Origin: Zhihengliuella halotolerans
GTDB lineage: Bacteria; Actinomycetota; Actinomycetes; Actinomycetales; Micrococcaceae
Direction: 5' to 3'
NCBI RefSeq assembly: GCF_004217565.1
Contig: NZ_SHLA01000001.1
Coordinates: 1,860,001-1,924,000 of the forward strand
DNA length: 64,000 nucleotides
Shown here: one piece after another, positions 23,432 to 38,206 of the stretch
Layout of the letters: every line of letters begins with the position of its first letter
How positions within the stretch are numbered: position 1 is the first letter of the stretch
The notes under the pieces: generated by a model
What the model was told of the DNA's origin: nothing
Databases searched by the model: none
What the model saw: the letters and a program-made list of their open reading frames with translations, nothing else
Position numbers and translations under genes: made by a program

Positions 23432-24124
23432 CTAGCCTAGCGCGCGTGTGACGTCCTCGGTAAAGCGTGCGACGGCGCCGCGCAACGCGCGCTCCGCGTC
23501 CCAGCCGTTTCGCCTAGCCAGATCCACGGTCCGCAGCAGCTGCTCGCCCAGTTCCGCCTCCGTCGACGGGGTAACACTTCCGGGCGCGTCGGCACCCGCC
23601 GCTCCCCCGCCGACCGCGGGTACGACGGCGTCGTCCGCGCCGGCGCGTCCGGCCCGCCCGAGCGTCTTGTCGGCGAGCGTCAGCGCAGGCAGGTGCCGCG
23701 GCAGCGACGCGAACGGGTCCCTCCGCTCCGGGCGTTCGGCCCGCTTGGCCGCGTCCCAGGAGGCGATGATCTCCTCGATGGAGTCGGGGTAGTCCCCCAG
23801 CAGCGAACCGTCGGCGGCGAAGACGTGCCGGTTGCGGCGGATGAGTTTCTCGCTCAGCGTGTTCACGACGCCCTCCATCGTGAAGGACCCGCGCTCGGCG
23901 GCGATGGCGGAGTGCAGCACCACCTGATACAGGACGTCGCCGAGCTCGCCGCGAAGTTCATCGTCCGGGTGCCGCTCCTCGATGGCCTCGACGAGTTCGT
24001 AGCTCTCCTCGACGAGGTACTCGACGAGCGACTCGTGCGTCAGCGCCCGCGTCCAGACGCAATGCTGGCGCAACTCGGCGATGATCTGCACGAGCCGCTC
24101 GACGGCTCCCGGCTGCTGGGCCAT
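23432..24124 (-). CDS. mazG: MazG family nucleotide pyrophosphohydrolase
   Basis: 230 residues. It has the MazG motif THESLVEYLVEESYELVEAIEE (metal-binding Glu residues) and ELRGELGDVLYQVVLHSAIAAE, then FTMEGVVNTLSEKLIRRNRHVF. The usual CPWD before THESL is CVWT here. The C-terminal part has a Gly/Ala-rich linker and a second, weaker helical unit. It hydrolyses (d)NTPs to monophosphates as housecleaning. ATG 24124 is preferred over ATG 24151 because a TAGCCT box ends 7 nt upstream; that box overlaps the add stop codon. Confidence 0.87.
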   Translation of the reverse strand: MAQQPGAVERLVQIIAELRQHCVWTRALTHESLVEYLVEESYELVEAIEERHPDDELRGELGDVLYQVVLHSAIAAERGSFTMEGVVNTLSEKLIRRNRHVFAADGSLLGDYPDSIEEIIASWDAAKRAERPERRDPFASLPRHLPALTLADKTLGRAGRAGADDAVVPAVGGGAAGADAPGSVTPSTEAELGEQLLRTVDLARRNGWDAERALRGAVARFTEDVTRALG

Positions 24125-24131
24125 GGCGGGG

Positions 24132-24137
24132 AGGCTA
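24132..24137 (-). promoter_or_regulatory. -10 box, leaderless start of mazG
   Basis: TAGCCT on the minus strand, then 7 nt, then ATG 24124. The box includes the TAG stop codon of add. Confidence 0.5.
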
Positions 24138-25313
24138 CTCGTCGTCCGCATCCTCGTCGTCGCCGGCCCCGAGCGCAGCGTAGGCCTGGTTCACGTAGTC
24201 GACGAGCACCTCGCGCTCCTCGAGCGGAAGGAACGCGGCCTCGGCGGCGTTGAGCGTCAGCTCGAGGAAGTCGTCGAGGTCGTAGTCGAAGGCCTCCACG
24301 AGCAGCTCGAACTCGTCCGAGAGCCCGACGCCGGACATGAGGCGGTTGTCGGTGTTGATCGTGACGTTGAAACCCGTCTGGTACAGCAGGTCGATCGGGT
24401 GCGATTCGATGCTGTCGCCGAACTCGGCGATCGCGCCGGTCTGCAGATTGGAGGACGGGCAGACCTCGAGCGCGATACCGCGGTCGCGCACCCAGTTCGC
24501 CACCGGACCCAGCGAAACCAGACCGGTGGACTCGTCGACTGGTTCGCCGTCGTCGTCTACTCCCCCGAACTCGATCTCGATATCCTCGGCGACGCGCACA
24601 CCGTGGCCGAGCCGGGTCGCGTGGCCGGTGACGAGGGCCTCGCGGATGGAGTCGAGGCCGGCGGCCTCGCCCGCGTGCACCGTGGCCGGGAACATGTTCT
24701 CGGCGAGGAGCGTGAAGGCCTCGGCGTGGCGGGAGGGCGGGAAGCCGTTCTCCGCGCCGGCGATGTCGAAGCCGACGACGCCGCGGGAGCGGTGGCGCAG
24801 GGCCAGCTGGGCAATCTCGGTGCTGCGCTCGGCGTGACGCATCGCCGTGATGATCTGGCCGACCTGGATCGGAGTGCCAGCAGACTCGGCGTCGGCCATG
24901 CCGGCCTCGAGCCCGGCCTGCACCGCCTCCACGGCGTCGTCCAGGCTGAGCCCCTCGCGCAGGTGCTGCTCCGGTGCCCAGCGCACCTCGCCGTAGATCA
25001 CGCCGTCTGCGACGAGGTCCTCGACGAACTCGCGGGCGACGCGGGTCAGGGCCTCGCGTGTCTGCATGACGGCGACGGTGTGGTCGAACGTCTCGAGGTA
25101 GCGCTCGAGGGAACCGGAATCCGCGGACTCGAAGAACCAGCGGCCGAGCTCCTCCGCCTCGGTGGCGGGCAGTTCGTGGCCGATCTCGGCGGCCAGTTCG
25201 ATGATCGTGGCAGGTCGCAGTCCACCGTCGAGGTGGTCGTGCAGCGAGACCTTGGGGAGGGTTCGGAAGTCGAATTCGGGCGAGTACACGGTGTGGATCA
25301 TCTCGTTGGTCAC
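24135..25313 (-). CDS. add: Adenosine deaminase
   Basis: 392 residues. The N-terminal KVSLHDHLDGGLRP gives the zinc histidines (HxH), followed by GEVRWAPEQHL, the catalytic TVHAGEAAG near residue 217, LGHGVRVAED and the zinc ligand in NTDNRLMSG (near 315). It converts adenosine and deoxyadenosine to inosine compounds, feeding purine salvage. The C-terminus is very acidic (GAGDDEDADDE). The GTG start at 25313 lies 7 nt after a TACACT -10 box. Confidence 0.92.
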   Translation of the reverse strand: MTNEMIHTVYSPEFDFRTLPKVSLHDHLDGGLRPATIIELAAEIGHELPATEAEELGRWFFESADSGSLERYLETFDHTVAVMQTREALTRVAREFVEDLVADGVIYGEVRWAPEQHLREGLSLDDAVEAVQAGLEAGMADAESAGTPIQVGQIITAMRHAERSTEIAQLALRHRSRGVVGFDIAGAENGFPPSRHAEAFTLLAENMFPATVHAGEAAGLDSIREALVTGHATRLGHGVRVAEDIEIEFGGVDDDGEPVDESTGLVSLGPVANWVRDRGIALEVCPSSNLQTGAIAEFGDSIESHPIDLLYQTGFNVTINTDNRLMSGVGLSDEFELLVEAFDYDLDDFLELTLNAAEAAFLPLEEREVLVDYVNQAYAALGAGDDEDADDE

Positions 25314-25320
25314 AACTCCA

Positions 25321-25326
25321 AGTGTA
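25321..25326 (-). promoter_or_regulatory. -10 box, leaderless start of add
   Basis: TACACT on the minus strand, then 7 nt, then GTG 25313. Confidence 0.55.
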
Positions 25327-25332
25327 GGGGTG

Positions 25333-25365
25333 GGCCGGGTCGCACGGGGACCCCGCGACCCGGCC
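25333..25365 (-). terminator. Terminator after the nucleoside hydrolase gene
   Basis: GGCCGGGTCGC and GCGACCCGGCC form a perfect 11-bp stem with an 11-nt loop, just after the nucleoside hydrolase stop and before the add promoter. Confidence 0.7.
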
Positions 25366-25371
25366 GCGAGC

Positions 25372-26355
25372 TCACGCCGCGGCGGGCGAAGGTGCCGACG
25401 TCGCCGGCTCGGTCAGGGACAGGGTGAGGTGCTCGCAGAAGTCCGCGTCGACCCGCAGGACGACCCTGCACGTCGCCCCGCGGCGGTCCTCGTATCCGCG
25501 GTACTTGCCACGCAGGTCGCACACCGTCTGCCCGCGGCCTGGCCCGTCACTCGTGTCGACGACGACGGGCACCCGCGGGGCGGACTCCGCGACGACGCTG
25601 CCCAAGGCGATTGCGACGGCGAGCGGATCGTGCATGGCCGAACAGCCGCGGCCGAAGATGTCCCGGTAGAACTCGAAGTAATGCCCGAGCATCGAGGCGA
25701 GCACCTGGGCCGCGGGCCGCTCGGACTCCGCGAGCCGCTGCCGGTGCGGCTCCTCCAAGAGGTGCGCCATGGTGACGTCGAGGGGGACGAGGTTCACGGG
25801 CCAGCCGGCGGTCAGCACGGCGTGGGCGGCCTCGGGATCGTTGGCGATGTTGGCTTCGGCGACGGCGGTGACATTGCCCGGGGCCAGCGCCGCGCCGCCC
25901 ATGACGGTGACTGAATGGACCATCCCGGGCAGGCGCGGTTCGAGTTCGAGAGCGCGCGCGAGGTTCGTCAAGGGCCCGATGGCGATCACGCGCAGCGTGC
26001 CGGCGGAGGCGCGGGCGAGCGAGACGAGCATCTCCGCGGCGCTCTCGGCCTCGACCTGACGATCGGCCGGCGCGAGCTGCACCCCGCCGATGCCGTTGGC
26101 GCCGTGCACGTGGGGGGCGCCTCCCGCGTAGGGGGCAGCCAAGAAGTCATGCTCGCCGACGGCGACGGGGACGTCGTCGTGCCCCAGCAGGGCGAGGAGG
26201 TCCAGCGTGTTGCGCGCGGCCGTGCCGGAGTCGGTGTTGCCGCTGACGGTGCCGATGCCGCGCACGTCGGCCTCCGGCTGGGCCATGAGGTAAGCGAGGG
26301 CGAGGGCGTCGTCGATGCCCGTGTCGCAGTCGAGGTAGACGGGGAGGGTGTCCAT
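25372..26355 (-). CDS. Nucleoside hydrolase (IunH family)
   Basis: 327 residues. The DCDTGIDDALAL motif at 9-20 supplies the Ca2+-binding aspartates. VSGNTDSGTAARNTLDLL, ANGIGGVQL, IAIGPLTNLARAL and the C-terminal HDPLAVAIAL also fit the family. It splits the N-glycosidic bond of ribonucleosides to base and ribose. ATG 26355 has AAGGA upstream. It follows an MFS gene by 25 nt, an arrangement like uriT-uriH (uridine importer and hydrolase) of Corynebacterium glutamicum, so uridine is a reasonable guess for the substrate. Confidence 0.9.
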   Translation of the reverse strand: MDTLPVYLDCDTGIDDALALAYLMAQPEADVRGIGTVSGNTDSGTAARNTLDLLALLGHDDVPVAVGEHDFLAAPYAGGAPHVHGANGIGGVQLAPADRQVEAESAAEMLVSLARASAGTLRVIAIGPLTNLARALELEPRLPGMVHSVTVMGGAALAPGNVTAVAEANIANDPEAAHAVLTAGWPVNLVPLDVTMAHLLEEPHRQRLAESERPAAQVLASMLGHYFEFYRDIFGRGCSAMHDPLAVAIALGSVVAESAPRVPVVVDTSDGPGRGQTVCDLRGKYRGYEDRRGATCRVVLRVDADFCEHLTLSLTEPATSAPSPAAA

Positions 26356-26380
26356 GTCGGGTCCTTTCACAGGGAGGGTA

Positions 26381-27829
26381 TTAGGCGGCGGCCGGCTTCG
26401 GCACCAGCAGGGCCACGACGAAAGCGAGGGCGGCGATGCTCACGGAGATCCAGAGCGCGGGTCCGTAGCCGCCGTCGGCGGCGCGAGCCACGGTCGGGGC
26501 GACGAGGACGACGCCGAGGCTCGCCCCGATGCCGAACGAGGCGCCGTTGATCCCGGGCAGCGTTCCGGGCGCCTCCTTCGGCGACAGGAGCGCCGAGAGC
26601 CCGTTGATGGCCGTGAGGAAGAACCCGTTGTAGGTGATGCCCAGGGCGGCGACTGCTGCGAGGACAAGCCAGCGGTCCTCCACGAAGAACGCGGCCGACG
26701 CGGCGGCCAGCAACGTGGCGCCGGAACCGATGCGCAGGGTCGTGATCCATCCGATGCGAGCGGTCAGCCAGCCGGCGAAGGGCGCGGCGAAGACGCCGAT
26801 CAGGGCCGCCGGCGTGAGGTACAGGAGCGCGGCCGTTGACGGCTCGAGCCCGAACCCGTAGTCGGAGTCCTGGCTGAGGACCACGATCGTGAAGTTCATG
26901 GTCGCGAAGATGCCCGCCAGTGTCAGGACCGTGCAGGCGACGACGGTCCACACGGGACGGGAACGCAAGTGGTGCACGGCGATCAGGGGGCTGCTCCGGC
27001 GCTTCTCGACGAAGACGAAGGCGGCGAACGCGGCACCGGTGACCGCGAGCAGAGTGAGAGCCTTCGGCGAGCCCCAGCCGGATTCGGAACCGCTGTTAAC
27101 GAAGTACGTGAGGGCGATGAGGAAAGCGGAGAGCAGCGCCGCGCCCCACCAGTCCATACGTCCTGTGGAGGCCTGGGCGTGCTTGGCGGGCACGACGCGG
27201 ACGATGGCGACCGCCGCGACGACGGCCAGAGCGAGGATGACCCAGAAGATCGAGCGGAACCCGAAGGCCTCCGTCATCAAACCGCCCAGGTAGCCGTCGA
27301 AGCCGGCGACCCCGCCGTTGATGGAGGCCAGGACGCCCACCGAGGTGCCGAAGGCGGCGCGGGACAGGTTCTCCTGCATGACGATATAGCTCAGCCCGAA
27401 GATCGCGCTCGAGAAGCCCTGGAGGAAACGCCCGGCGACGAGGACCGGCAGCGTCGGGGCCAGCAGGCAGAGCACGGTGCCCAGCGACATGACGCCGATG
27501 ACCAGCAGCAGCGCCGTGCGCCGGCCGATGAAGTCGCTCCAGCGGCCCATCAGCGGGCCCGAGATCGCGCCGGCGAGGAAGAAGAGGGACTGCACCGGGG
27601 CGACGGATTCGGGGCCGACGCCGAAGTGCCGGGCGATATCGGGAAGCGCCGGCGTCACCATGGACGCGTTCAGCTGGAAGGAAACGACCCCCAGCAGCAG
27701 GACGGCCACGAGGACGGCGGTGGCCCGGCGTCCGCCGCTGCCGGCACCGTTCTCGGTTCCAGTCGCCGCGGCGCGCGCTGCGGCGACGGCTCCCCGGTCT
27801 GCACTCTGCGCGGTCACTGGTTCTGGCAC
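26381..27829 (-). CDS. MFS transporter, probable nucleoside importer
   Basis: 482 residues, 14 or so membrane segments with a polar 35-residue N-terminus. MGRWSDFIGRRTALL is the conserved loop 2-3 motif and GRFLQGFSSAIFG is in segment 4. The fold belongs to the DHA2-like MFS branch, usually drug efflux. Even so, the tight coupling to a nucleoside hydrolase and the shared promoter element point to nucleoside uptake, as for UriT of C. glutamicum. The start is GTG 27829 with GGAGAG upstream. The promoter and operator are at 27877-27911. Confidence 0.85.
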   Translation of the reverse strand: MPEPVTAQSADRGAVAAARAAATGTENGAGSGGRRATAVLVAVLLLGVVSFQLNASMVTPALPDIARHFGVGPESVAPVQSLFFLAGAISGPLMGRWSDFIGRRTALLLVIGVMSLGTVLCLLAPTLPVLVAGRFLQGFSSAIFGLSYIVMQENLSRAAFGTSVGVLASINGGVAGFDGYLGGLMTEAFGFRSIFWVILALAVVAAVAIVRVVPAKHAQASTGRMDWWGAALLSAFLIALTYFVNSGSESGWGSPKALTLLAVTGAAFAAFVFVEKRRSSPLIAVHHLRSRPVWTVVACTVLTLAGIFATMNFTIVVLSQDSDYGFGLEPSTAALLYLTPAALIGVFAAPFAGWLTARIGWITTLRIGSGATLLAAASAAFFVEDRWLVLAAVAALGITYNGFFLTAINGLSALLSPKEAPGTLPGINGASFGIGASLGVVLVAPTVARAADGGYGPALWISVSIAALAFVVALLVPKPAAA

Positions 27830-27849
27830 GGCTCTCCACTCCTTCGTGA

Positions 27850-27915
27850 GGTGATGTCCAACACTCTTGCGTGTGAGTTGTTATACAACCATGAATGACA
27901 ACTAAGTGCAATGCC
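27850..27915 (-). promoter_or_regulatory. Promoter plus GntR-type operator, copy A
   Basis: Read on the minus strand: TTGCAC (27911-27906), 17-bp spacer, TTGTAT (27888-27883). The perfect palindrome GTTGTATAACAAC (27889-27877) overlaps the -10 box. The whole 66-nt stretch is close to copy B at 36729-36794, with about 54 identical positions by hand count and 23 consecutive identical bases. It drives the MFS/nucleoside hydrolase operon. Binding by the adjacent GntR protein is inferred. Confidence 0.75.
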
Positions 27916-27987
27916 GTGACCGGACTTCTCGGTCCTCCTCACCTAGACTGAATGTGACCGCACCAACATTCGACGACTCGAGGTGGC

Positions 27988-28758
27988 ATGTACTCTCCCG
28001 GCGACTTCCCCTGGGCGCAGCCCGTCCAAGCGACCCCTGGGGTGCCCTTGCGTGTCGCCGCCTACTCGCGCATCTCCGAGGCGATCCGCGACGGCCAGCT
28101 GGCGCCGGGGGCACTCCTGCCGACGGAAAGCGAACTCGGCCAGCTGATGAGCGTCTCCCGGACCGTCGTCCGCGAGGCCCTCATGCTGCTCGAGGAAGAC
28201 GGCCTGGTGCGCGCCCGCCGCGGCGTCGGACGGTTCGTCTCCCCCTCGCTGCCCCGCATCGGCATCGAACGCGTCCACCCCTACGAGGACGTTTTCTCCC
28301 ACGAGGGCCGGCCCGCGGAGCTCGTCTCCCAGACGATCGCCCACCAGCCCGCGTCCGACTTCGTCTCCCAGCGGATCGGCCTCGCCAACGGCGCGGCGTC
28401 GATCCTGTTCGAATCCGTGCTCGCCCGCGCCGGAGAACCGGTCGCGCATCTGCAGGAGCACGTCGCCCTCTCATCAGTCGAGGGACCCGAGGCGATCATC
28501 GCTGCGACAACCGAGACCGAGTCTGAATCCACCCTGCTGGCGCGGCTCATCCGAGCCTTGGGACCGGGCTTCGGACGCGGGACGTGCGAGATCTCGGCGG
28601 CGCCAGTAGGGGCGACACGGGCCGAGCCGCTCGCCCTGGCCGCCGACGACCCGGTGCTCGTCCTGACGCAGACCGTGGCGCGCGGAAACGCCGGTTTCTA
28701 CCTCTCCAAGTGCGTGGTCCCCGCCCGCGCGGGGCACTTGACCCTCAAGCAGACCTGA
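27988..28758 (+). CDS. GntR family regulator (HutC/UTRA type), probable nucleoside repressor
   Basis: 256 residues. The N-terminal winged helix (about 25-95) is AYSRISEAIRDGQLAPGALL to VSRTVVREALMLLEEDGLVRARRGVGRFV. The C-terminal effector domain resembles UTRA (SILFESVLARAGEPVAHLQEHV; VLTQTVARGNAGFYLSKCVVP). It is divergent from the MFS/nucleoside hydrolase operon. Two matching GT-N3-AC palindromes in nucleoside-gene promoters suggest it senses a nucleoside or its metabolite. ATG 27988 has GAGGTG upstream, and TAGACT at 27944-27949 is a candidate -10 box. Confidence 0.88.
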   Translation: MYSPGDFPWAQPVQATPGVPLRVAAYSRISEAIRDGQLAPGALLPTESELGQLMSVSRTVVREALMLLEEDGLVRARRGVGRFVSPSLPRIGIERVHPYEDVFSHEGRPAELVSQTIAHQPASDFVSQRIGLANGAASILFESVLARAGEPVAHLQEHVALSSVEGPEAIIAATTETESESTLLARLIRALGPGFGRGTCEISAAPVGATRAEPLALAADDPVLVLTQTVARGNAGFYLSKCVVPARAGHLTLKQT

Positions 28759-28768
28759 CGGTCGCGGG

Positions 28769-29416
28769 TCAGGACTCGACCCCGTCGGGTGCCGGGCCGT
28801 GGGCCAGGCGACGGACCTGACGGCGCCGCAGCAGCGCGTAGATGATCCGGTCGATGAGGTAGCCGATCACGAAGGCGACCAGCACGGACACGACGACGGC
28901 GACCAGCTTGTGCTCCTCGAACCAGCGACCGGCGAGTGCGCCGATCGCCACCGAGTACGCAGCCCAGACGGTGCAGGCGATCGCATCGAGCATCGCGAAC
29001 CGGCGCCACGGGTATTTCGTCGCCCCGGCCGTGAAGTTCACCGCCGTGCGGCCCAGCGGGATGAACCGCGCGGTGAAGATGAGCAGTGCCCCGCGAACCA
29101 CGAGCTCCCTCCGCGCGAAGGCGAGCACCTTCCGCGCGCGCGGCCCCCGCATCCAGCGGACCCTGTCGACGCCGATGGCGGCTCCCATCCGGTAGGCCAC
29201 CTGATCGCCGATGAAGGCCCCGACGCCGCCGAGAACGGCGAGCAGCACGAGGTCCTGCGTTCCCGCCGTCACGGCGACGCTGGCGAGCCCGACGAGCAGC
29301 GACTCGCTGGGAACGATCGGGAAGAAGGCGTCGATCCCGCAGAAGAGGAAGACGACGCCGAGGACCCACCATTCCCCGGACGCGGCCATGATCGCGTCGT
29401 TGATCACCTCGAGCAC
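28769..29416 (-). CDS. DedA family membrane protein
   Basis: 215 residues, about five membrane segments. DedA (SNARE-associated) motifs are FFPIVPSESLLV near residue 32, GAFIGDQVAYRMGAAIG and FTARFIPLGRTAVNFTAG with the conserved Arg in the amphipathic region. Members are undecaprenyl-phosphate or phospholipid flippases. The GTG start at 29416 has AAAGGGG upstream. It is convergent with the GntR gene, with 10 nt between the stops. It may be read through from the deoA operon 148 nt upstream, but no functional link is obvious. Confidence 0.85.
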   Translation of the reverse strand: MLEVINDAIMAASGEWWVLGVVFLFCGIDAFFPIVPSESLLVGLASVAVTAGTQDLVLLAVLGGVGAFIGDQVAYRMGAAIGVDRVRWMRGPRARKVLAFARRELVVRGALLIFTARFIPLGRTAVNFTAGATKYPWRRFAMLDAIACTVWAAYSVAIGALAGRWFEEHKLVAVVVSVLVAFVIGYLIDRIIYALLRRRQVRRLAHGPAPDGVES

Positions 29417-29564
29417 GCGTGCCCCTTTGCTACTCGCCTGTGTCCTACAGCGCCTGCGCCCGATGCGGGCGGCGCCTCTCCTCTATTCTGACGCGTCACG
29501 GCCGCTTTCGGTTCCCCCTCAGGAAGGATTCAGGGGCGAGCCCGGGTCATCCCCCAGGTGCAGA

Positions 29565-30872
<1,308 letters not shown>

Positions 30873-30890
30873 GATGTGCCTTTCGGTGGG

Positions 30891-31301
30891 TCAGTACTCG
30901 ACGAGATCGTCCGGGCCGAACGCGTCCGGCAGGACCTGGTCCATGGTCTTGATCCCGCTGACGGTCATCAGCTCCATGCCCGGCGCGCGGTGCTCGAAGA
31001 GCAGCTGCCGGCACCGGCCGCACGGCATCAGGACCGCGCCGTCGCCGCCGACGCAGTAGAACGCGCGCAGTCGGCCGCCGCCCGTCATGTGCAGCTGCCC
31101 GATCATCGTGCACTCCGCGCAGAGGACGACGCCGTAGGCCGCGTTCTCGACGTTGCAGCCGCTGATGAGGCGCCCGTCGTCGGTCAGCGCGGCCGCTCCG
31201 ACGGGGAACTTCGAGTAGGGCGCATAGGCCCTGCGCATCGCGTCGACGGCGGCCTCCTGGAGGCGCCCCCAATCGGCGTCGGTCATCGTCTCGGTTTCCA
31301 C
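30891..31301 (-). CDS. cdd: Cytidine deaminase
   Basis: 136 residues, the short homotetrameric type. Motifs: APYSKFPVGAAALTDDG, NVENAAYGVVLCAECTMIG (catalytic Cys-Ala-Glu) and MPCGRCRQLLFE (zinc cysteines). It deaminates cytidine and deoxycytidine to uridine forms, the step before DeoA. It starts 3 nt after the stop of the upstream permease. Confidence 0.94.
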   Translation of the reverse strand: METETMTDADWGRLQEAAVDAMRRAYAPYSKFPVGAAALTDDGRLISGCNVENAAYGVVLCAECTMIGQLHMTGGGRLRAFYCVGGDGAVLMPCGRCRQLLFEHRAPGMELMTVSGIKTMDQVLPDAFGPDDLVEY

Positions 31302-31304
31302 GGG

Positions 31305-32576
31305 CTAATCCTTCACATACGGTTGGCCGGACGCCGCCGGAGCTCGCGAGGCCCCCACGAGCCCCGCGACAGCGAAGATCGTGATGACGTAGGGCAACAT
31401 CGCCAGGAACTGGCTCGGCACGTCGGTGCCGGCCTGGCTGAGCACGTATTGGAGGTTCGTCGCGAAGCCGAAGAGCAGCGAGGCGAAGAACGCCCCGATC
31501 GGATTCCAGCGCCCGAAGATCAGCGCGGCGAGGGCGATGAAGCCGGTGCCGGCCGTCATGTCGCGCGAGAACTGCGAGACGGAGACGAGCGTGTAGAAGC
31601 TGCCGCCGAGTCCCGCGACGGCACCGCCGATGAGCACGTTGATCACGCGGGTGCGGTTCACGTTGATGCCGACGGTGTCAGCCGCCTTGGGGTGCTCGCC
31701 GACGGCGCGCACGCGCAGGCCCCAGCGGGTCTTGTAGAGGCCGAACCACAACACGCCGACGGCGACGAACATCAAGTAGCCGAGGATCGTCTGGTTGAAC
31801 AGCAGCGGCCCCAGAATGGGGATCTCGCTCAGGCCCGGGATCGCGAACGAGGACAGGCGCGGCGGCGAGTTGAGGGCCCGGTTGCTTGAGAGGAGGGTTC
31901 CGAAGAGGAAGCCGGTGAGGCCGGAGACGAGCACGTTGAGCACGACGCCGACGATGATCTGATTCACACGGTATTTCACCGCGAACAGCGTCAGCAGGCT
32001 GGAGACGACGACGCCGCCGAGCGCCGCGGAGACCATCGCCCCGACCACCGAGCCGGAAAGCGAACCGCCCAGGGCCGCGGCGAAAGCGCCGAGGAGCAGC
32101 TGGCCCTCGATCGCGATGTTCACGACGCCGGAGCGCTCTGCCAGCACGCCGCCGAGCGATCCGTAGACCATCGGCAGCGCAAGGGCGAGCGAGCCAGTGA
32201 GCAGCGACAGCAGGGAGATGGCCGAGGCCCGGGAGGAACCGACGAGCCAGACGAGGATTCCGATCACGAACAGGAGCGCGAAGATCGCGGGAACCCATCC
32301 GGCCAGTCGTCGGGCCGTCTTCTCGCTCCAGAACGCGTAGGCCGCGCCGGCGACGAGCAGGATCGCGATGAGCCACCCGGTCGCGGTGACCGGAAGGGTC
32401 AGCAGCGGCAGCTGGACCGCGTCGCCTGCCGAGGAGAGGCGGAACGAAGCCGTCCCGCCCGGAGACAGGAAGCCGAAGAGCACGAGGGCGACGGCGGCGC
32501 CGAGCCCGTAGAGGGCGAGGGCCCGCTTGTTCATGACGTGGACCGCGCCGGTCGCGGAGGCGGTTGCAGTACTCAC
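31305..32576 (-). CDS. ABC transporter permease, nucleoside (BMP) type, second
   Basis: 423 residues with about ten membrane segments. It is of the RbsC-like BPD_transp_2 fold: SLGGVLAERSGVVNIAIEGQLLLGAF, GVVLNVLVSGLTGFLFG and RWGLRVRAVGEHPKAADTVGINV are the family signatures, shared with YufQ/NupC-type nucleoside permeases. GTG 32576 is chosen because it overlaps the stop of the preceding permease (GTGA); an internal ATG (MNKRALAL) is an alternative. It forms the heterodimeric channel with the other permease. Confidence 0.88.
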   Translation of the reverse strand: MSTATASATGAVHVMNKRALALYGLGAAVALVLFGFLSPGGTASFRLSSAGDAVQLPLLTLPVTATGWLIAILLVAGAAYAFWSEKTARRLAGWVPAIFALLFVIGILVWLVGSSRASAISLLSLLTGSLALALPMVYGSLGGVLAERSGVVNIAIEGQLLLGAFAAALGGSLSGSVVGAMVSAALGGVVVSSLLTLFAVKYRVNQIIVGVVLNVLVSGLTGFLFGTLLSSNRALNSPPRLSSFAIPGLSEIPILGPLLFNQTILGYLMFVAVGVLWFGLYKTRWGLRVRAVGEHPKAADTVGINVNRTRVINVLIGGAVAGLGGSFYTLVSVSQFSRDMTAGTGFIALAALIFGRWNPIGAFFASLLFGFATNLQYVLSQAGTDVPSQFLAMLPYVITIFAVAGLVGASRAPAASGQPYVKD

Positions 32577-33784
32577 TTCTCTCCTCCTCCGGTGGTGGCG
32601 GCGACCGCAACGGGCGCTTTCGGTTTCTTCCGTTTCCGCTGTCCGAGCCCGAACATCGAGCGCACGAGCGGCGGCGCCGCGATGAAGAGCACGATCAGAG
32701 ACTGCACGACGAGGACGATGTCGATCGGCGTACCGGTCGCGATCTGCATCGCACCGCCTCCGGCGCGGAAAGCGCCGAAGAGCAGCGACGCGAAGAACAC
32801 GCCGATCGGATTGGAGCGGCCGAGCAGCGCAACCGTGATTGCGTCGAAACCGATGGACGCCGCCACCGACTCGGTGAGGAAGCGCTCGGTGCCGTTGACC
32901 TGCGCGGCACCGGCGAGGCCGGCCATGGCACCCGCGATGACCATGGCCAGCACGGTGACCTTGAACGTGTTGATGCCGGCGGTGCGCGCGGCGTGGTGGT
33001 TGGAGCCGACCGCCTTGATCTCGAAGCCGAGCGTCGAGCGGTTCATGAGCCACCAGACGAACGCCGTGGCGGCCAGAGCGACGAGGAATCCGGCGTGCAG
33101 GCGGAAGTCCGGCCCGAGCAGCTCCGGGTACATCGCGGATTCATGCATGCGCGGGCTGACCGGGTTCGTCGAGCCGGGCCGCTGGAGCGCCGGGGTGCTC
33201 AGCAGGTAGCCGACGAGATTCAGCGCCACGTAGTTGAGCATGATCGTCAGGATCACCTCGTGCGCGCCCGTTCGCGCTTTGATCCAGCCGACGATCCCGC
33301 CCCAGAGCGCGCCGCCGAGAATGGAGCCGATGACGACGATCAGCAAGTGCACGGGCCAGGCGAGGTCGAGCGTGAAGCCGATCCACGTCGCGAAGATCGC
33401 GCCAAGGATGATCTGGCCCTGCGCGCCGATGTTGAACAGGCCCGCGCGGAACGCGACGGCCACACCAAGCGACGCCGTCAGCAGCGGGGTCGCGTAGGTG
33501 AGGGTCTCGGTCAGCGGCTTGATCATCGCCGCGAACGTGCCGGCGTCGTAGTTGAAGACCGCTCCCCGGAACATGGCCGCGTAGGAGCTCGCGGCCGCGT
33601 CCCACGCGGCGGCGAGCGTGTCGAGCGGGCGGGCGAAGAAGTAGGACGCGGACGACGCCGTCTTCTCGTCGGTGATGGCGATGAGGATGCCGCCGACGAC
33701 GAACGAGGCGAAGATCGCCAGCACGGAGATGAACGCGTTGGACCGACGCAACCGGTCGGTCAGAGATGGGGTGGTGGAACTCAT
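32573..33784 (-). CDS. ABC transporter permease, nucleoside (BMP) type, first
   Basis: 403 residues. A short basic N-terminus is followed by about ten membrane segments. GVAVAFRAGLFNIGAQGQIILGAI, GAHEVILTIMLNYVALNLVGYLL and LGFEIKAVGSNHHAARTAGIN match the YufP/NupB-type permease. A Lys/Ala-rich cytoplasmic tail ends the protein. ATG 33784 overlaps the ATPase stop (ATGA) and its own stop overlaps the next start (GTGA), so the three transporter genes are chained by 4-nt overlaps. Confidence 0.9.
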   Translation of the reverse strand: MSSTTPSLTDRLRRSNAFISVLAIFASFVVGGILIAITDEKTASSASYFFARPLDTLAAAWDAAASSYAAMFRGAVFNYDAGTFAAMIKPLTETLTYATPLLTASLGVAVAFRAGLFNIGAQGQIILGAIFATWIGFTLDLAWPVHLLIVVIGSILGGALWGGIVGWIKARTGAHEVILTIMLNYVALNLVGYLLSTPALQRPGSTNPVSPRMHESAMYPELLGPDFRLHAGFLVALAATAFVWWLMNRSTLGFEIKAVGSNHHAARTAGINTFKVTVLAMVIAGAMAGLAGAAQVNGTERFLTESVAASIGFDAITVALLGRSNPIGVFFASLLFGAFRAGGGAMQIATGTPIDIVLVVQSLIVLFIAAPPLVRSMFGLGQRKRKKPKAPVAVAATTGGGEK

Positions 33785-35361
33785 GCGATGCCTCCGGGCA
33801 GCTGCGGCTCGTCGTCTTCTTTCGTGGCCAGGTTGGCCGCTTCGGCCTCCGCGAAGGCCTCCTCGGCCGTCGAGCCGGCCATCATCAGGCCCAGCACGTC
33901 GCGGCTGGTGTTGCCGGGGACCAGGCCCATGACCTTGCCGTGGAAGAGCACGGCGATCCGGTCGCCGAGCTCGGCAACCTCGTCGAGCTCGGTCGAGACC
34001 ACGACGACGGGCACGTCCTTGTCGCGCTCGGCGAGGATGCGCCGGTGCAGGAACTCGATCGAGCCGACGTCGACGCCGCGCGTGGGCTGCGCCGCGATGA
34101 AGAGACTCAGATCGCGAGAGAACTCGCGGGCCAGGACGACCTTCTGCTGGTTTCCGCCGGAGAGTTGGCTGGCCGTGTGCATCGCCGACTGGGTCCGGAT
34201 GTCGAACTCCTCGATCTTTGCGTCGGCGTTCTCGGCGATGAACTTCGGCTGCAGGGAACCGCCCTTGGCGACCGGGGCGCGGTCGTAGCGGTTGAGCACG
34301 AGATTGTCGGCGATGGTGAAGTCGCCGATCACGCCGTCGGTGCTGCGGTCCTCGGGCACGTAGCCCACCCCGGAGTTGATGATCTCCTTCGTTGAGCGGC
34401 CGAGCAGTTCGCGTCCGTCGAGGCGGATGGAGCCCGTGGTGCGCTCGGTCAGGCCCATGATGGCCTCGACGAGTTCGGTCTGGCCGTTGCCCTGGACGCC
34501 GGCGACGGCGAGGATCTCGCCCCTCTTCACGTCGAGCGAGACATGGTCGAGGGTCGGGACGCCGAGGTCGTCGATGACGGTCAGATCGCGGATCTCGAGG
34601 GCGACGTCGCTGCCGTCCGAGTGCTGGCGGCCGAGCGAGAGGTCCACGGCGCGGCCGACCATGAGCGAGGCCAGTTCCATGGCGTCGGCGGTCGGGTCCG
34701 CGTTGCCGACGACCTTGCCGCGGCGGATCACCGTGATGTCGTCGGAGATGGCCTTGACCTCGCGCAGCTTGTGCGAGATGAAGATGATCGAGGTGCCGTC
34801 GGCCTTGAGCTGGCGGATGATGTCCATCAGCTCGTCGGTCTCCTTCGGCGTGAGCACCGCCGTCGGCTCGTCGAGGATGAGCAGGTCGGCCTTGCGGACG
34901 AGCGCCTTGATGATCTCGACGCGCTGCTGGACGCCGACGGGCAGCTCTTCGACGAGCGCGTCCGGGTCGACGTGGAATCCGTACTTCTCCGAGATCTCGC
35001 GGATCGCCTGGCGGGTCTTGTCGAGATCGAGGATGCCGGCCGCTTTGGTCCGTTCGTCGCCGAGGGCGACGTTCTCGGCGACCGTGAACACCGGAACGAG
35101 CATGAAGTGCTGGTGCACCATGCCGATACCCGCGGCCATCGCGTCCCCGGGGCCGCGGAAGTGCACCGGGGCGCCGTTGACGAGGATCTCGCCGGCGGTC
35201 GGCTCGTAGAGCCCGTAGAGCACGTTCATCAGTGTCGATTTGCCGGCGCCGTTCTCGCCGAGGAGGGTGTGCACTTTGCCCTCGTCGACGACCAGGTCGA
35301 TGCCGTCGTTGGCTACGAAGTCGCCGAAGGCCTTCGTGATGCCTTTGAGTTCCAGTTTCAT
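33781..35361 (-). CDS. ABC transporter ATP-binding protein, nucleoside type (two ATPase domains)
   Basis: 526 residues, two ABC domains in tandem as in YufO/RbsA. Domain 1 has Walker A GENGAGKSTLMN (near 36-47), a degenerate signature LPVGVQQRVEI and Walker B LLILDEPTAVL. Domain 2 has a degenerate Walker A GVQGNGQTEL and a full signature LSGGNQQKVVLARE near 395. One catalytic site per pair is thus probably impaired, usual for this family. It energises the two permeases. The upstream BMP gene is separated by a strong hairpin. Confidence 0.93.
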   Translation of the reverse strand: MKLELKGITKAFGDFVANDGIDLVVDEGKVHTLLGENGAGKSTLMNVLYGLYEPTAGEILVNGAPVHFRGPGDAMAAGIGMVHQHFMLVPVFTVAENVALGDERTKAAGILDLDKTRQAIREISEKYGFHVDPDALVEELPVGVQQRVEIIKALVRKADLLILDEPTAVLTPKETDELMDIIRQLKADGTSIIFISHKLREVKAISDDITVIRRGKVVGNADPTADAMELASLMVGRAVDLSLGRQHSDGSDVALEIRDLTVIDDLGVPTLDHVSLDVKRGEILAVAGVQGNGQTELVEAIMGLTERTTGSIRLDGRELLGRSTKEIINSGVGYVPEDRSTDGVIGDFTIADNLVLNRYDRAPVAKGGSLQPKFIAENADAKIEEFDIRTQSAMHTASQLSGGNQQKVVLAREFSRDLSLFIAAQPTRGVDVGSIEFLHRRILAERDKDVPVVVVSTELDEVAELGDRIAVLFHGKVMGLVPGNTSRDVLGLMMAGSTAEEAFAEAEAANLATKEDDEPQLPGGIA

Positions 35362-35419
35362 GGGGTCTTCCCGAGCGTTGTTGCCATGGCCTGTGTGAGT
35401 TGCCGCCGCCGAGACGTGC

Positions 35420-35456
35420 GTGCGGCCGGGGGCGATCCATTCGCCCCCGGCCGCAC
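35420..35456 (-). terminator. Intra-operon hairpin after the BMP lipoprotein gene
   Basis: GTGCGGCCGGGGGCGA and TCGCCCCCGGCCGCAC form a perfect 16-bp stem with a 5-nt loop, right after the BMP stop. It probably reduces read-through or protects the mRNA 3' end, so the binding protein is made in excess over the ABC subunits. Confidence 0.75.
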
Positions 35457-35476
35457 GCCGTCGTCCGGACGGTGGA

Positions 35477-36538
35477 TCAGTCGAGCGGGTCGACCTCGCC
35501 GGCGATGATCTCCGCGCGCAGCGCGTCGAGCTCGCCCTGCAGGCCGTCGGGCAGGTCGGCCTCGAAGTCGTAGAACGGGGCGATGCCGACGCCCTCGTTC
35601 TCCAAGGTGCCGACGTACGCCTCGGAGGCGAACTCCTCGTTGACGTCCTGCTCGATGGACTCGAACACGGTCAGGCCCATGTTCTTCATGACGGAGGTCA
35701 GCACCGCGGTGTCGCCGCCGTTGGCGTACTCGTGGCCGTCGGTGTCGACCCAGACGACGGCGTCGTCTTCGCTGGCCGACTCGTTCACGGCATCGACCGC
35801 GGTCTGGCCCAGCGGACCGGCGACGGGCATCAGCACGTCCACGCCGGACTGCAGGAAGTTCTCCGAGATCTGCTTGGCCTTGACGGTGTTCGAGAAGTCG
35901 CCGACGAAGGTGTCCACACCCTCGACCTCGACGTCGGCGTCGTTGTCCTCGTTGTAGCGTTCGACGCCATTCTCGAAGCCGAACATGAAGTCGGTCACCG
36001 TGCTGATCTCGGCACCGCCGAAGGTTCCGACCTTGCCGGACTTCGAGTAAGCGGCCGCAACATAGCCGGCCAGGTAGGCTGCCTCAGCCGTGTTGTAGTT
36101 CAGGGTGCGCATGTTCTCCGGGACCGTTTCGTAGCCGTAGTCCACGACCGCGAACTTGGTCTCCGGGTTGGCTTCCGCAGCATTGAGCGGTAGATCCTCG
36201 AACATGAAGCCGGCCGTGATGATCATGTTGCAGCCGGCGTCGACCATCTGGTCGATGTTCGGGCCCATGTCGGTCGAGGCGTTCGACTCCGCCTCGCGGG
36301 TCTCGACGCCGAGCTCGTCCTTGGCCCGGGTGAGGCCCTCGTGGGACGCCTGGTTGAACGAACCGTCGTCGAAGCCGCCTTCATCGGAGACCATGCACGC
36401 GGTGTAGTCGATCGGCTCGACGTCGCCCCCGTTGCCCTCCTCGGGTGCGGCGCCACAGGCCGACAGGACCAGCGCGGAGACGCCGAGAACGGCGGCGGCG
36501 ACGCCAGTGGACCTCTTGATACGCAGTGAATTCTTCAA
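35477..36538 (-). CDS. BMP family nucleoside-binding lipoprotein
   Basis: 353 residues. The lipoprotein signal peptide ends in LSAC (Cys28). The mature BMP/PnrA fold shows VSDEGGFDDGSFNQASHEGL, FAVVDYGYETVPENMRTLNYNTAEAAYLAGYVAA and GTFGGAEISTVTDFMFGFENGV. It captures nucleosides outside the membrane for the ABC transporter encoded downstream. The start codon is TTG at 36538, five nt after GGAGG, an unusual start for such a highly used protein. The 5' leader is long and structured, with a GntR-type operator at its promoter. Confidence 0.92.
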   Translation of the reverse strand: MKNSLRIKRSTGVAAAVLGVSALVLSACGAAPEEGNGGDVEPIDYTACMVSDEGGFDDGSFNQASHEGLTRAKDELGVETREAESNASTDMGPNIDQMVDAGCNMIITAGFMFEDLPLNAAEANPETKFAVVDYGYETVPENMRTLNYNTAEAAYLAGYVAAAYSKSGKVGTFGGAEISTVTDFMFGFENGVERYNEDNDADVEVEGVDTFVGDFSNTVKAKQISENFLQSGVDVLMPVAGPLGQTAVDAVNESASEDDAVVWVDTDGHEYANGGDTAVLTSVMKNMGLTVFESIEQDVNEEFASEAYVGTLENEGVGIAPFYDFEADLPDGLQGELDALRAEIIAGEVDPLD

Positions 36539-36555
36539 TGTTCCTCCGTTGAACT

Positions 36556-36654
36556 AGCCCCTCATGACCACCTTCCGGAACGGGTCTCGGGACACCGGTG
36601 CGAGTCGGCGGGAGACCCGGCAGGGGCTGCGGATGCGTCCCCACCGAAGGTGGT
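36556..36654 (-). promoter_or_regulatory. Structured 5' leader with crossing inverted repeats (candidate riboswitch)
   Basis: Three complementary pairs are seen: AGCCCCT 36556-36562 with AGGGGCT 36622-36628, ACCACCTTC 36567-36575 with GAAGGTGGT 36646-36654, and CGGGTCTC 36581-36588 with GAGACCCG 36612-36619. The first two cross each other, so they are either mutually exclusive or form a pseudoknot; the third nests inside both. The region lies in the transcribed leader, ending 17 nt before the TTG start. It matches no riboswitch class that I know. Confidence 0.5.
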
Positions 36655-36728
36655 GAATGTAACAAAGAGTAACGCCCTTGCGTGCGTCCTGTCAGCCTAT
36701 CGCCGCGGAAAACGGGCGATCCGATGTT

Positions 36729-36794
36729 GGTGATGTGCACCACTCTTCGCTGTGACTTGTTATACAACCATGAATGACAGTTGCATGCAATACC
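36729..36794 (-). promoter_or_regulatory. Promoter plus GntR-type operator, copy B
   Basis: On the minus strand: TTGCAT (36790-36785), 17-bp spacer, TTGTAT (36767-36762), with TTGTATAACAA (36767-36757) over the -10 box. It is nearly the same as copy A at 27850-27915, including about 27 nt past the predicted transcription start. It drives the BMP - ABC - cdd - deoA operon. Confidence 0.75.
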
Positions 36795-36943
36795 CCGGAG
36801 TAGCCCTGCCGCCCGCCCGGGCAGTAGCGGAGTTGGCGGTTCCGGCGCTGACCTGCGCGTCAGTGCGCCAACGGGGCCCGCGCCAGCTCGTACCCCGACG
36901 AGAGGATTCTCCGGGCGGGGCCACCGACGGCGCGAAATCCGCC

Positions 36944-38206
36944 CTACTCCGCGAGCCGCCCGGTCGCGGCCTCGAGCGCGGCGCGCACGGCTGCAGCCGC
37001 CATGACCCGCACGCCGATGCCGATCGCCCGCTCGTCCGGGGCGTAGTCGCCGCGGTGCAGGTCGTAGGTCTCGCCGCCGGGCGTGCGTGTGCCGAGGCGA
37101 AGCATCGCCCCCGGGACCTTCTGCGTCATCCAGGCGAAGTCCTCGCCTCCCATGGACTGCGGCGTCAGGACGATCGCGTGGGCGCCGATCTCGGCGCGCG
37201 CGGCTGATTCGATGAGTTCGGTCTCCGCGGGGGCGTTCATGACCGGTGGCACGCCGCGCAAGTGCTCGAGTTTGACGTCGACGCCGAACGGCTGGGCCAC
37301 CTGCTGAACGACGTCGTCGAGCATGTCGCCGGCGGCTTCCCACGCCTCGGCGTCAAGGCAGCGCATCGTGCCGGCCAGATACCCGGCGGAGGGGATGGCG
37401 TTGGGTGCAGACCCGCCGCTGATTTGCCCCCACACGACCGAGACGCCGCTGCGCACGTCGACGCGGCGGTTCAAGACGGCCGGCACGTCGACGGCGACCT
37501 TGGAGAGCGCGAACACGAGGTCCTCAGTCAGGTGCGGGCGCGAGGTGTGCCCGCCGCGCCCGGTGAGCTCGAGCTTGATGGTGTCGGCGGCGGAAGTGAT
37601 GGCGCCGATGCGGGTGCCGATCGTGCCGGCGTCGATGCGCGGGTCGCAGTGCAGCGCCAGCACGCGCGGGACGTCGTCGAGCACACCCTGCTCGATCACG
37701 GCCAGGGCGCCACCCGGCATCCGCTCTTCCGCGGGCTGGAAGATCACGCGCACGCGGGAGGCGAGCTTGCCGGCGTCGTGCATCTTCTTCAGCGTGAGCG
37801 CGACGCCGAGCGCGACGGTCGTGTGAATATCGTGGCCGCACGCGTGGCACACGCCCCGGGTAACCGAGGCGTAGTCGAGCCCCGTCTCCTCGACGACGGG
37901 AAGCGCGTCGATGTCGGCCCGCAAGCCGAGCGCGACCGGGCCGTCCCCGACGTCGACCCACGCGCCCGTCCCCTCGAGCCGCTGCGGGTCAAGGCCCGCA
38001 TCGGTGAGGATGTCGACGACCCTCTCCGTGGTGCGGTGCTCCTGGAATGAGAGCTCCGGGTTCGCATGCACGTCGCGCCGGAAGGCGACGAGGTCCTCGA
38101 GGAGCGGGTCCACCCACGGGCCAACCGCGGGCACGCCCGCGGTGGTCAGGGCGCGGCCGGGCGCGCCTTCCGGATGCTTGGTTGCGTTCTCGCCTGAGCC
38201 ATTCAC
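36944..38206 (-). CDS. M20 family amidohydrolase
   Basis: About 420 residues. The M20D peptidase/aminoacylase fold shows FRRDVHANPELSFQEHRTT, LRADIDALPV (metal Asp), HACGHDIHTTVALG, FQPAEERMPGGALAVI (catalytic Glu) and the dimerisation domain GRGGHTSRPHLTEDLVFAL. Likely action is hydrolysis of an N-acyl amino acid or similar amide in the cytoplasm. GTG 38206 is favoured by AAGG at the right distance; GTG 38215 or an earlier start is possible. Its stop lies 150 nt upstream of the nucleoside transporter promoter, so the two are probably separate units. Confidence 0.88.
   Translation of the reverse strand: MNGSGENATKHPEGAPGRALTTAGVPAVGPWVDPLLEDLVAFRRDVHANPELSFQEHRTTERVVDILTDAGLDPQRLEGTGAWVDVGDGPVALGLRADIDALPVVEETGLDYASVTRGVCHACGHDIHTTVALGVALTLKKMHDAGKLASRVRVIFQPAEERMPGGALAVIEQGVLDDVPRVLALHCDPRIDAGTIGTRIGAITSAADTIKLELTGRGGHTSRPHLTEDLVFALSKVAVDVPAVLNRRVDVRSGVSVVWGQISGGSAPNAIPSAGYLAGTMRCLDAEAWEAAGDMLDDVVQQVAQPFGVDVKLEHLRGVPPVMNAPAETELIESAARAEIGAHAIVLTPQSMGGEDFAWMTQKVPGAMLRLGTRTPGGETYDLHRGDYAPDERAIGIGVRVMAAAAVRAALEAATGRLAE

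Follow-up and report, generated by a model that had tools for sequence, protein, structure and literature searches.

A putative GntR/HutC-type repressor of nucleoside catabolism in Zhihengliuella halotolerans and the duplication of a promoter bearing its predicted operator

In a stretch of 64,000 nucleotides of the Zhihengliuella halotolerans genome (hereafter the window, at its full length) two copies of one promoter stand before two operons concerned with nucleosides (Table 1). The first precedes the genes for a uriT-like major facilitator superfamily (MFS) transporter and a nucleoside hydrolase, beside a gene (gntR) for a GntR/HutC-type regulator, and the second precedes an operon for a BMP/PnrA-like binding protein, ATP-binding cassette (ABC) transporter components, cytidine deaminase (cdd) and a nucleoside phosphorylase (deoA), a layout that agrees with an earlier reading of this DNA (the original prediction, made from the sequence alone). 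The homology of the copies extends beyond their common palindrome, the palindrome is strictly associated with the GntR protein across related genomes, and the second copy is found in two genomes only. We propose, with a probability of roughly 0.8, that the GntR protein acts locally to repress the uptake and cleavage of nucleosides, and that its target promoter was copied to the BMP operon. Control of the nucleoside uptake-and-breakdown operon by GntR via the palindrome is, on comparative grounds, very probable, and the protein may serve as one switch for both operons in the window genome and in one close relative.

The two promoter elements agree at 54 of their 66 base pairs (bp), including an uninterrupted run of 23 bases (TGTCATTCATGGTTGTATAACAA), and the next-best ungapped 66-mer on both strands of the window reaches 31/66 with the BMP copy as query and 30/66 with the uriT copy. 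With the -35 box and the operator set aside, 38 of the remaining 49 positions are identical; what is shared is thus more than an operator, and the elements are copies of one promoter. Each reads TTGCAY, 17 bp and TTGTAT, with the palindrome TTGTATAACAA over the -10 box; these features had all been claimed in the original prediction and were confirmed in extent and position, and the assignment of the palindrome to the GT-N3-AC type was likewise supported. The genome-wide motif search that it had suggested, once run, placed the exact palindrome at just two positions in 3,583,060 bases, both inside the elements (reversed control: 0). Within the window, a scan with at most one mismatch gave 2 matches against 0.01 expected, and the genome holds one extra place with one mismatch (TTGTATGACAA, L075), inside an open frame. 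No third copy was found by BLAST with the 66 bp, which gave only a 14-base match beyond the elements, in the window genome and in a close relative (G072).

Operator 1 lies 48 bp from the start of the uriT-type operon and 99 bp from that of gntR. As a -10 box TTGTAT is weak, and no promoter was returned when positions 27700-29560 (which take in the region of element 1, element 2 being outside the range) were scanned under strict sigma-70 settings; such features are common among activated promoters, and would suit a GntR protein that acts as an activator at both promoters. This alternative is nevertheless most improbable, given that a protein bound to the palindrome, on the -10 hexamer itself, would block the polymerase, and that the HutC proteins NagR, DasR and NupR are described as repressors in passages of the respective papers (PMC4333415, PMC4918961, PMC9430930). 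No RNA families were detected at 24000-37000. Between operator 1 and gntR (positions 27942-27990) we observed a TAGACTG-like element, also present in L003 and L004, which lies about 55 bp from the operator and may serve as the promoter of gntR.

The distribution of regulator and site was surveyed in 395 genomes of the family, with orthologs called by profile search at E<=1e-100. This threshold yielded 48 genomes (51 at E<=1e-60; G269, G189 and G343, with best E-values of 6.2e-83, 2.0e-78 and 9.9e-65, were left out of the count), and the rarity of the ortholog suggested by a single-sequence search (5/149 genomes) proved to be an artefact. Ortholog and exact site before uriT or gntR were found together in 47 genomes, the ortholog only in one (G385, where the rbsK-uriT gap is short and the promoter block gone), the site only in none, and neither in 347; the predicted link between GntR and site thus holds across five genera, all 47 site genomes having an ortholog. 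The exact sites number 79 (6 in the genus of the window species and 73 outside it); 43 of those outside lie just before uriT (the divergent neighbour being gntR in 14 cases and rbsK in 29), 4 lie by gntR without uriT, and the other 26 are taken up below. One gntR-flanking site without uriT (L119) has a nucleoside hydrolase gene downstream. Conversely, uriT occurs in 51 copies in 49 genomes and the exact site is upstream of 47 of them, the remaining four being the copy of G385 and three diverged ones (43-55% identity) in G269, G189 and G163. The system shows signs of decay in three genomes: in G380 and G343 a stop interrupts the GntR match, and G385 no longer has the uriT promoter block.

Since the 47 uriT promoters, four of them within the genus and 43 from other genera, were collected by the 11-mer, its conservation among them is circular and only the surroundings count. 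In 46 of the 47 a TTGYAY precedes TTGTAT at a distance of 17 bp. The spacer contains a conserved GTMATACATG, and with it another GT-N3-AC core (GTCATTC in both window promoters), which stands 13 bp upstream of that of the palindrome and is possibly a second, weaker operator. The link between site and GntR protein also holds where gntR does not adjoin uriT, where uriT is absent, and where the -35 is different (L027/L065). Furthermore, 26 of 30 orthologs taken from the protein search have TTGT-N3-ACAA (TTGTNNNACAA) in their upstream 300 bp (10 of 44 loci, fetched by the site or by closeness to it, were left out; letter shuffles over all 44 loci give 0.18%), with TTGTTATACAA in 12, TTGTCCAACAA in 13 and TTGTCCGACAA in 1. 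The palindromes of the standalone gntR genes, which belong to this class but mostly differ in their centre, point to probable autoregulation, with the outer TTGT/ACAA as putative contacts and the centre free. The palindrome could also be bound by another regulator (a LacI-type UriR or another GntR protein), with the ortholog being incidental: many GntR proteins share the GT-N3-AC type of site, and at the 29 sites where rbsK is the neighbour of uriT no gntR is divergent from the site. We regard this as improbable, as the rbsK-neighbour genomes all have the ortholog elsewhere (several on the same contig), the 347 genomes without it have no positional site, and a palindrome of this class precedes most of the orthologs. 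The GntR/uriT half of our explanation appears, by these comparisons, well supported.

Of the five genomes of the genus, G072 (L003) and the window genome have the copy before the BMP operon. In the other three the intergenic region is without the block; these are Z. salsuginis (L004/G020) and a Zhihengliuella metagenome-assembled genome (L005/G092), which with L003 are the nearest named records, and G048, which has no GntR match (E<=1e-60) and no uriT match (E<=1e-100). BMP homologs were sought by tblastn in 30 of the 48 ortholog genomes, 29 of which matched, with 30 loci (35 with those of the genus); TNGTNNNACNA was found in the 500 bp upstream at none of the 30 (L224 matches from residue 107 only, its promoter being out of view), and these homologs are 40-51% identical, their orthology being uncertain. 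In all five genomes of the genus, and at none of the 30 other loci, CTGRCA-N18-TACNCT lies upstream of BMP (in the window, between operator 2 and the gene), and looks like an older BMP promoter (P2). Given an old site at uriT and a young one at BMP, copying would most simply have gone from uriT to BMP, and the BMP copy is most simply explained as a lineage-specific promoter duplication. With the copy upstream of P2, the operon probably has two promoters in tandem, one of them gated by GntR, and loss of gntR might therefore lift BMP transcription no more than partially. The presence of the P2-like sequence throughout the genus, including G048, would also suit a narrower alternative, in which GntR controls uriT-uriH only and the BMP copy is bound to little effect, with P2 driving the operon. 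We hold this alternative to be unlikely though well worth weighing, as the BMP copies of the window and L003 are identical at 63/66 positions and the uriT copies at 56/66, which suggests that the BMP copy has been kept for use. The idea of a single regulon over both operons is thus supported in part by the comparison of both promoters in relatives that was put forward with it: for the GntR/uriT half the site is conserved; for the BMP operon the site is restricted to the window genome and G072 and control is probably partial. The contig of G072 that bears L003 (MLDA01000006.1) is titled Kocuria polaris MS50-16; window proteins match it at 92-100% and it groups by kinship with the window genus and Z. 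salsuginis, so that its organism name is probably wrong.

A number of observations weigh against the explanation proposed here. When the motif is loosened to TTGT-N3-ACAA it occurs at 12 places in the genome, as does its control (12), and with at most two mismatches at 49 against 80 for the control, so that only the exact sequence stands out; across the 395 genomes even the exact 11-mer is found at 79 places against about 95 (hand count) for its reversed control, and 24 of the 347 genomes without GntR have an exact site by chance. With counts at or below the controls, raw motif enrichment was rejected as an argument, and the case for the link between GntR and site is made from position and co-occurrence only. 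The Fisher value of the cross table (2e-60) is not to be taken as independent evidence, 38 of the 47 genomes in the five genera belonging to one genus (g10). Moreover, of the 73 sites in other genera, 26 are neither before uriT nor beside gntR (contig ends are close by at L088 and L125, where a neighbour gene could be cut off), the diverged GntR/uriT pairs of G269 and G189 and the second pair of G163 are without the site, and 4 of the 30 orthologs (L141, L148, L149 and L152) have no upstream site. As uriT and GntR are nearly always together (47 genomes with both, 1 with GntR alone and 2 with uriT alone), co-occurrence cannot separate them, and it is the gntR-only sites that carry that argument. 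With regard to the BMP operon, the lack of the site at homologs elsewhere puts it outside any old regulon, and the gain of the second copy is the simpler reading, with its loss in three genomes as the alternative.

The gntR product is a member of the GntR/HutC subfamily, with an N-terminal GntR winged helix (PF00392, 66.9 bits, cutoff 27, E-value 1.2e-18) and a C-terminal UTRA domain (PF07702, 30.2 bits, cutoff 23.8, E-value 4.4e-07). These were the only domains found, which supports the earlier statement that it differs from the LacI-type UriR, and none of the named HutC equivalogs of NCBIfam (HutC, PhnF and others) was reached (best TIGR02018, 62.6 of 220 bits). The helix MxVSRTVxREALMLLEEDG is almost invariant among the aligned orthologs. 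According to a passage of PMC4918961, an Arg-[VLI]-Arg motif holds the effector phosphate in many HutC proteins, being widely shared and missing in some members, in which other arginines can stand in for it; in NagR the residues are Arg133 and Arg135 (PMC4333415, in part). In the present protein the motif is replaced by E142-S143-V144-L145, invariant in 18 orthologs, in a register given by profile alignment against the RLR of 2ra5. Because ESVL takes the place of the phosphate motif, we would expect, with low confidence and from alignment alone as far as the pocket is concerned, an unphosphorylated ribonucleoside as the effector. The UTRA part alone as query found no significant solved structure; the full profile finds NagR/YvoA and DasR chains.

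In the mechanism that we envisage, the GntR/HutC protein would repress nucleoside uptake and cleavage locally, its dimer binding TTGT-N3-ACAA and covering the -10 of the uriT-uriH promoter; it may also damp its own gene, by analogy with the standalone orthologs. An effector derived from nucleosides, with an unphosphorylated ribonucleoside such as uridine as the likeliest candidate, would release the protein. In the lineage of the window species and G072, at least 66 bp with the entire promoter would have been copied before BMP/ABC/cdd/deoA, upstream of the older promoter, and with this copy GntR would gain partial control, through the use of two promoters, over ABC uptake, the deamination of cytidine and phosphorolysis. 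A more specific version, tentative and rather doubtful as a whole, would have a new clade of UTRA proteins fill the role of UriR, sensing a ribonucleoside that bears no phosphate and acting through a double operator (the palindrome and the GTMATAC core that stands 13 bp before it in the promoter spacer). The regulon would have been enlarged in one lineage by the copying of a complete repressible promoter to a second operon that kept its old one, a case of expansion by promoter duplication open to observation, with the empty place still to be seen in three sister genomes.

The targets are of the same kind as those of the UriR regulon of Corynebacterium glutamicum (the MFS uridine transporter UriT and the nucleoside hydrolase UriH), with a neighbouring rbsK in Arthrobacter-type genomes; the order in C. 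glutamicum is reportedly uriR-rbsK1-uriT-uriH. UriR, a LacI-type regulator of uridine utilisation (UriT/UriH passage of PMC3350403), belongs to LacI/GalR and has cre-like sites, in contrast to the GntR/UTRA protein and TTGT-N3-ACAA described here. The bifidobacterial RbsR paralogs, likewise actinobacterial and predicted for nucleoside hydrolase and transporter genes, rihC/iunH being the nucleoside genes under their control (PMC4746261), are also LacI-family proteins with a different motif. NupR of Bacillus thuringiensis is closer in kind, as a GntR/HutC protein over nucleoside transport with GT-N3-AC (e.g. GTCAGAC) in 10 of the 13 sites listed by its source (PMC9430930); its targets are NupC-type permeases, zinc is reported as its effector, the flanks of the sites differ, and the likeness is a functional one. 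NagR and DasR, which act in N-acetylglucosamine metabolism (PMC4333415 and PMC4918961, in part), share the winged helix-turn-helix (wHTH) and UTRA architecture and are effector-released repressors, but have Arg-[VLI]-Arg where the present orthologs (11 and 18 aligned) have ESVL. A search limited to open-licence papers found apparently no paper on the present regulator. As GntR/HutC regulators of nucleoside transport are already known (NupR), the lineage-specific promoter duplication is the more unusual part. Should the explanation be true, nucleoside catabolism would gain a named regulator-operator pair in Arthrobacter, Paenarthrobacter and Zhihengliuella relatives and, since UriR serves the same genes in another actinobacterium and is of an unrelated family, one pathway would be switched by unrelated repressors. 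Furthermore, the genus would offer a natural experiment in operon gain by a regulon, with two genomes that have the promoter at both places and three others in which the second place is empty.

Table 1. Features of the two nucleoside operons and their promoters (window coordinates).
Feature	Position	Strand	Remarks
Element 1 (uriT promoter)	27850-27915	-	66 bp
Operator 1, TTGT-ATA-ACAA (putative)	27878..27888	-	over -10 region of uriT-type operon; kept in relatives
-35 TTGCAC, uriT-type promoter	27906..27911	-	17 bp from TTGTAT
Element 2 (BMP promoter copy, P1)	36729-36794	-	66 bp
Operator 2, TTGT-ATA-ACAA (putative)	36757..36767	-	inside copied promoter P1; BMP start 218 bp on
-35 TTGCAT of copied promoter P1	36785..36790	-	
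P2 -35-like CTGACA	36690..36695	-	predicted promoter role
P2 -10-like TACTCT	36666..36671	-	18 bp from CTGACA; predicted role
gntR, GntR/HutC-type regulator	27988..28758	+	256 aa; wHTH + UTRA
uriT-like MFS nucleoside transporter	26381..27829	-	PF07690; top NCBIfam match UriT
Nucleoside hydrolase, UriH/Rih (IU) type	25372..26370	-	PF01156, 2.4e-82
Adenosine deaminase	24135..25313	-	NF006847 above cutoff; next downstream gene
BMP/PnrA-like substrate-binding protein	35477..36538	-	PF02608, 7.8e-52
ABC transporter ATPase	33781..35361	-	PF00005, 5.1e-52
Two ABC permeases	31305..33787 (about 32573-33787 and 31305-32579)	-	second PF02653; first by position, frame and L003-L005 homologs
cdd, cytidine deaminase	30891..31301	-	NF004064 and TIGR01354 above cutoff
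deoA/pdp, thymidine or pyrimidine-nucleoside phosphorylase	29565..30872	-	NF004490 and TIGR02644 above cutoff

The uriT-uriH architecture (an MFS gene followed by an IU-type hydrolase gene) is present, with equivalog scores below cutoff (320.5/600 bits for UriT and 163.4/450 for the hydrolase, which matches NCBIfam RihA, RihC and UriH, each below cutoff). The adenosine deaminase gene keeps the same order in L003, L004 and L005, and is possibly co-transcribed with the uriT-uriH operon.

The 10 further TTGT-N3-ACAA places of the window genome (L074-L083) were rejected as regulon members, with no nucleoside gene adjoining by eye and no family search run; 8 of them, L078 included, lie within longer open frames, which are not necessarily genes. 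The pair L082/L083 (G000:C1:2879148-2879182) is intergenic and consists of the palindromes TTGTTCAACAA and TTGTTGAACAA, 24 bp apart and flanked by transporter-like and aldolase-like genes (by eye), and is perhaps the operator of another GntR-type regulator. At L078 (G000:C1:2294995-2295005), TTGTCGGACAA stands shortly before a possible gene start with a GntR-like frame downstream (by eye), and may represent a separate regulator-operator pair. Lastly, in three genomes of the family (L104, L106 and L088) the 11-mer is embedded in a long palindrome (AACAAGGCTTGTATAACAAGCCTTGTT in two and CTGCTTCCCTTGTATAACAAGGGAAGCAG in one) that is unlike GntR sites and is perhaps a terminator or a recombination site.

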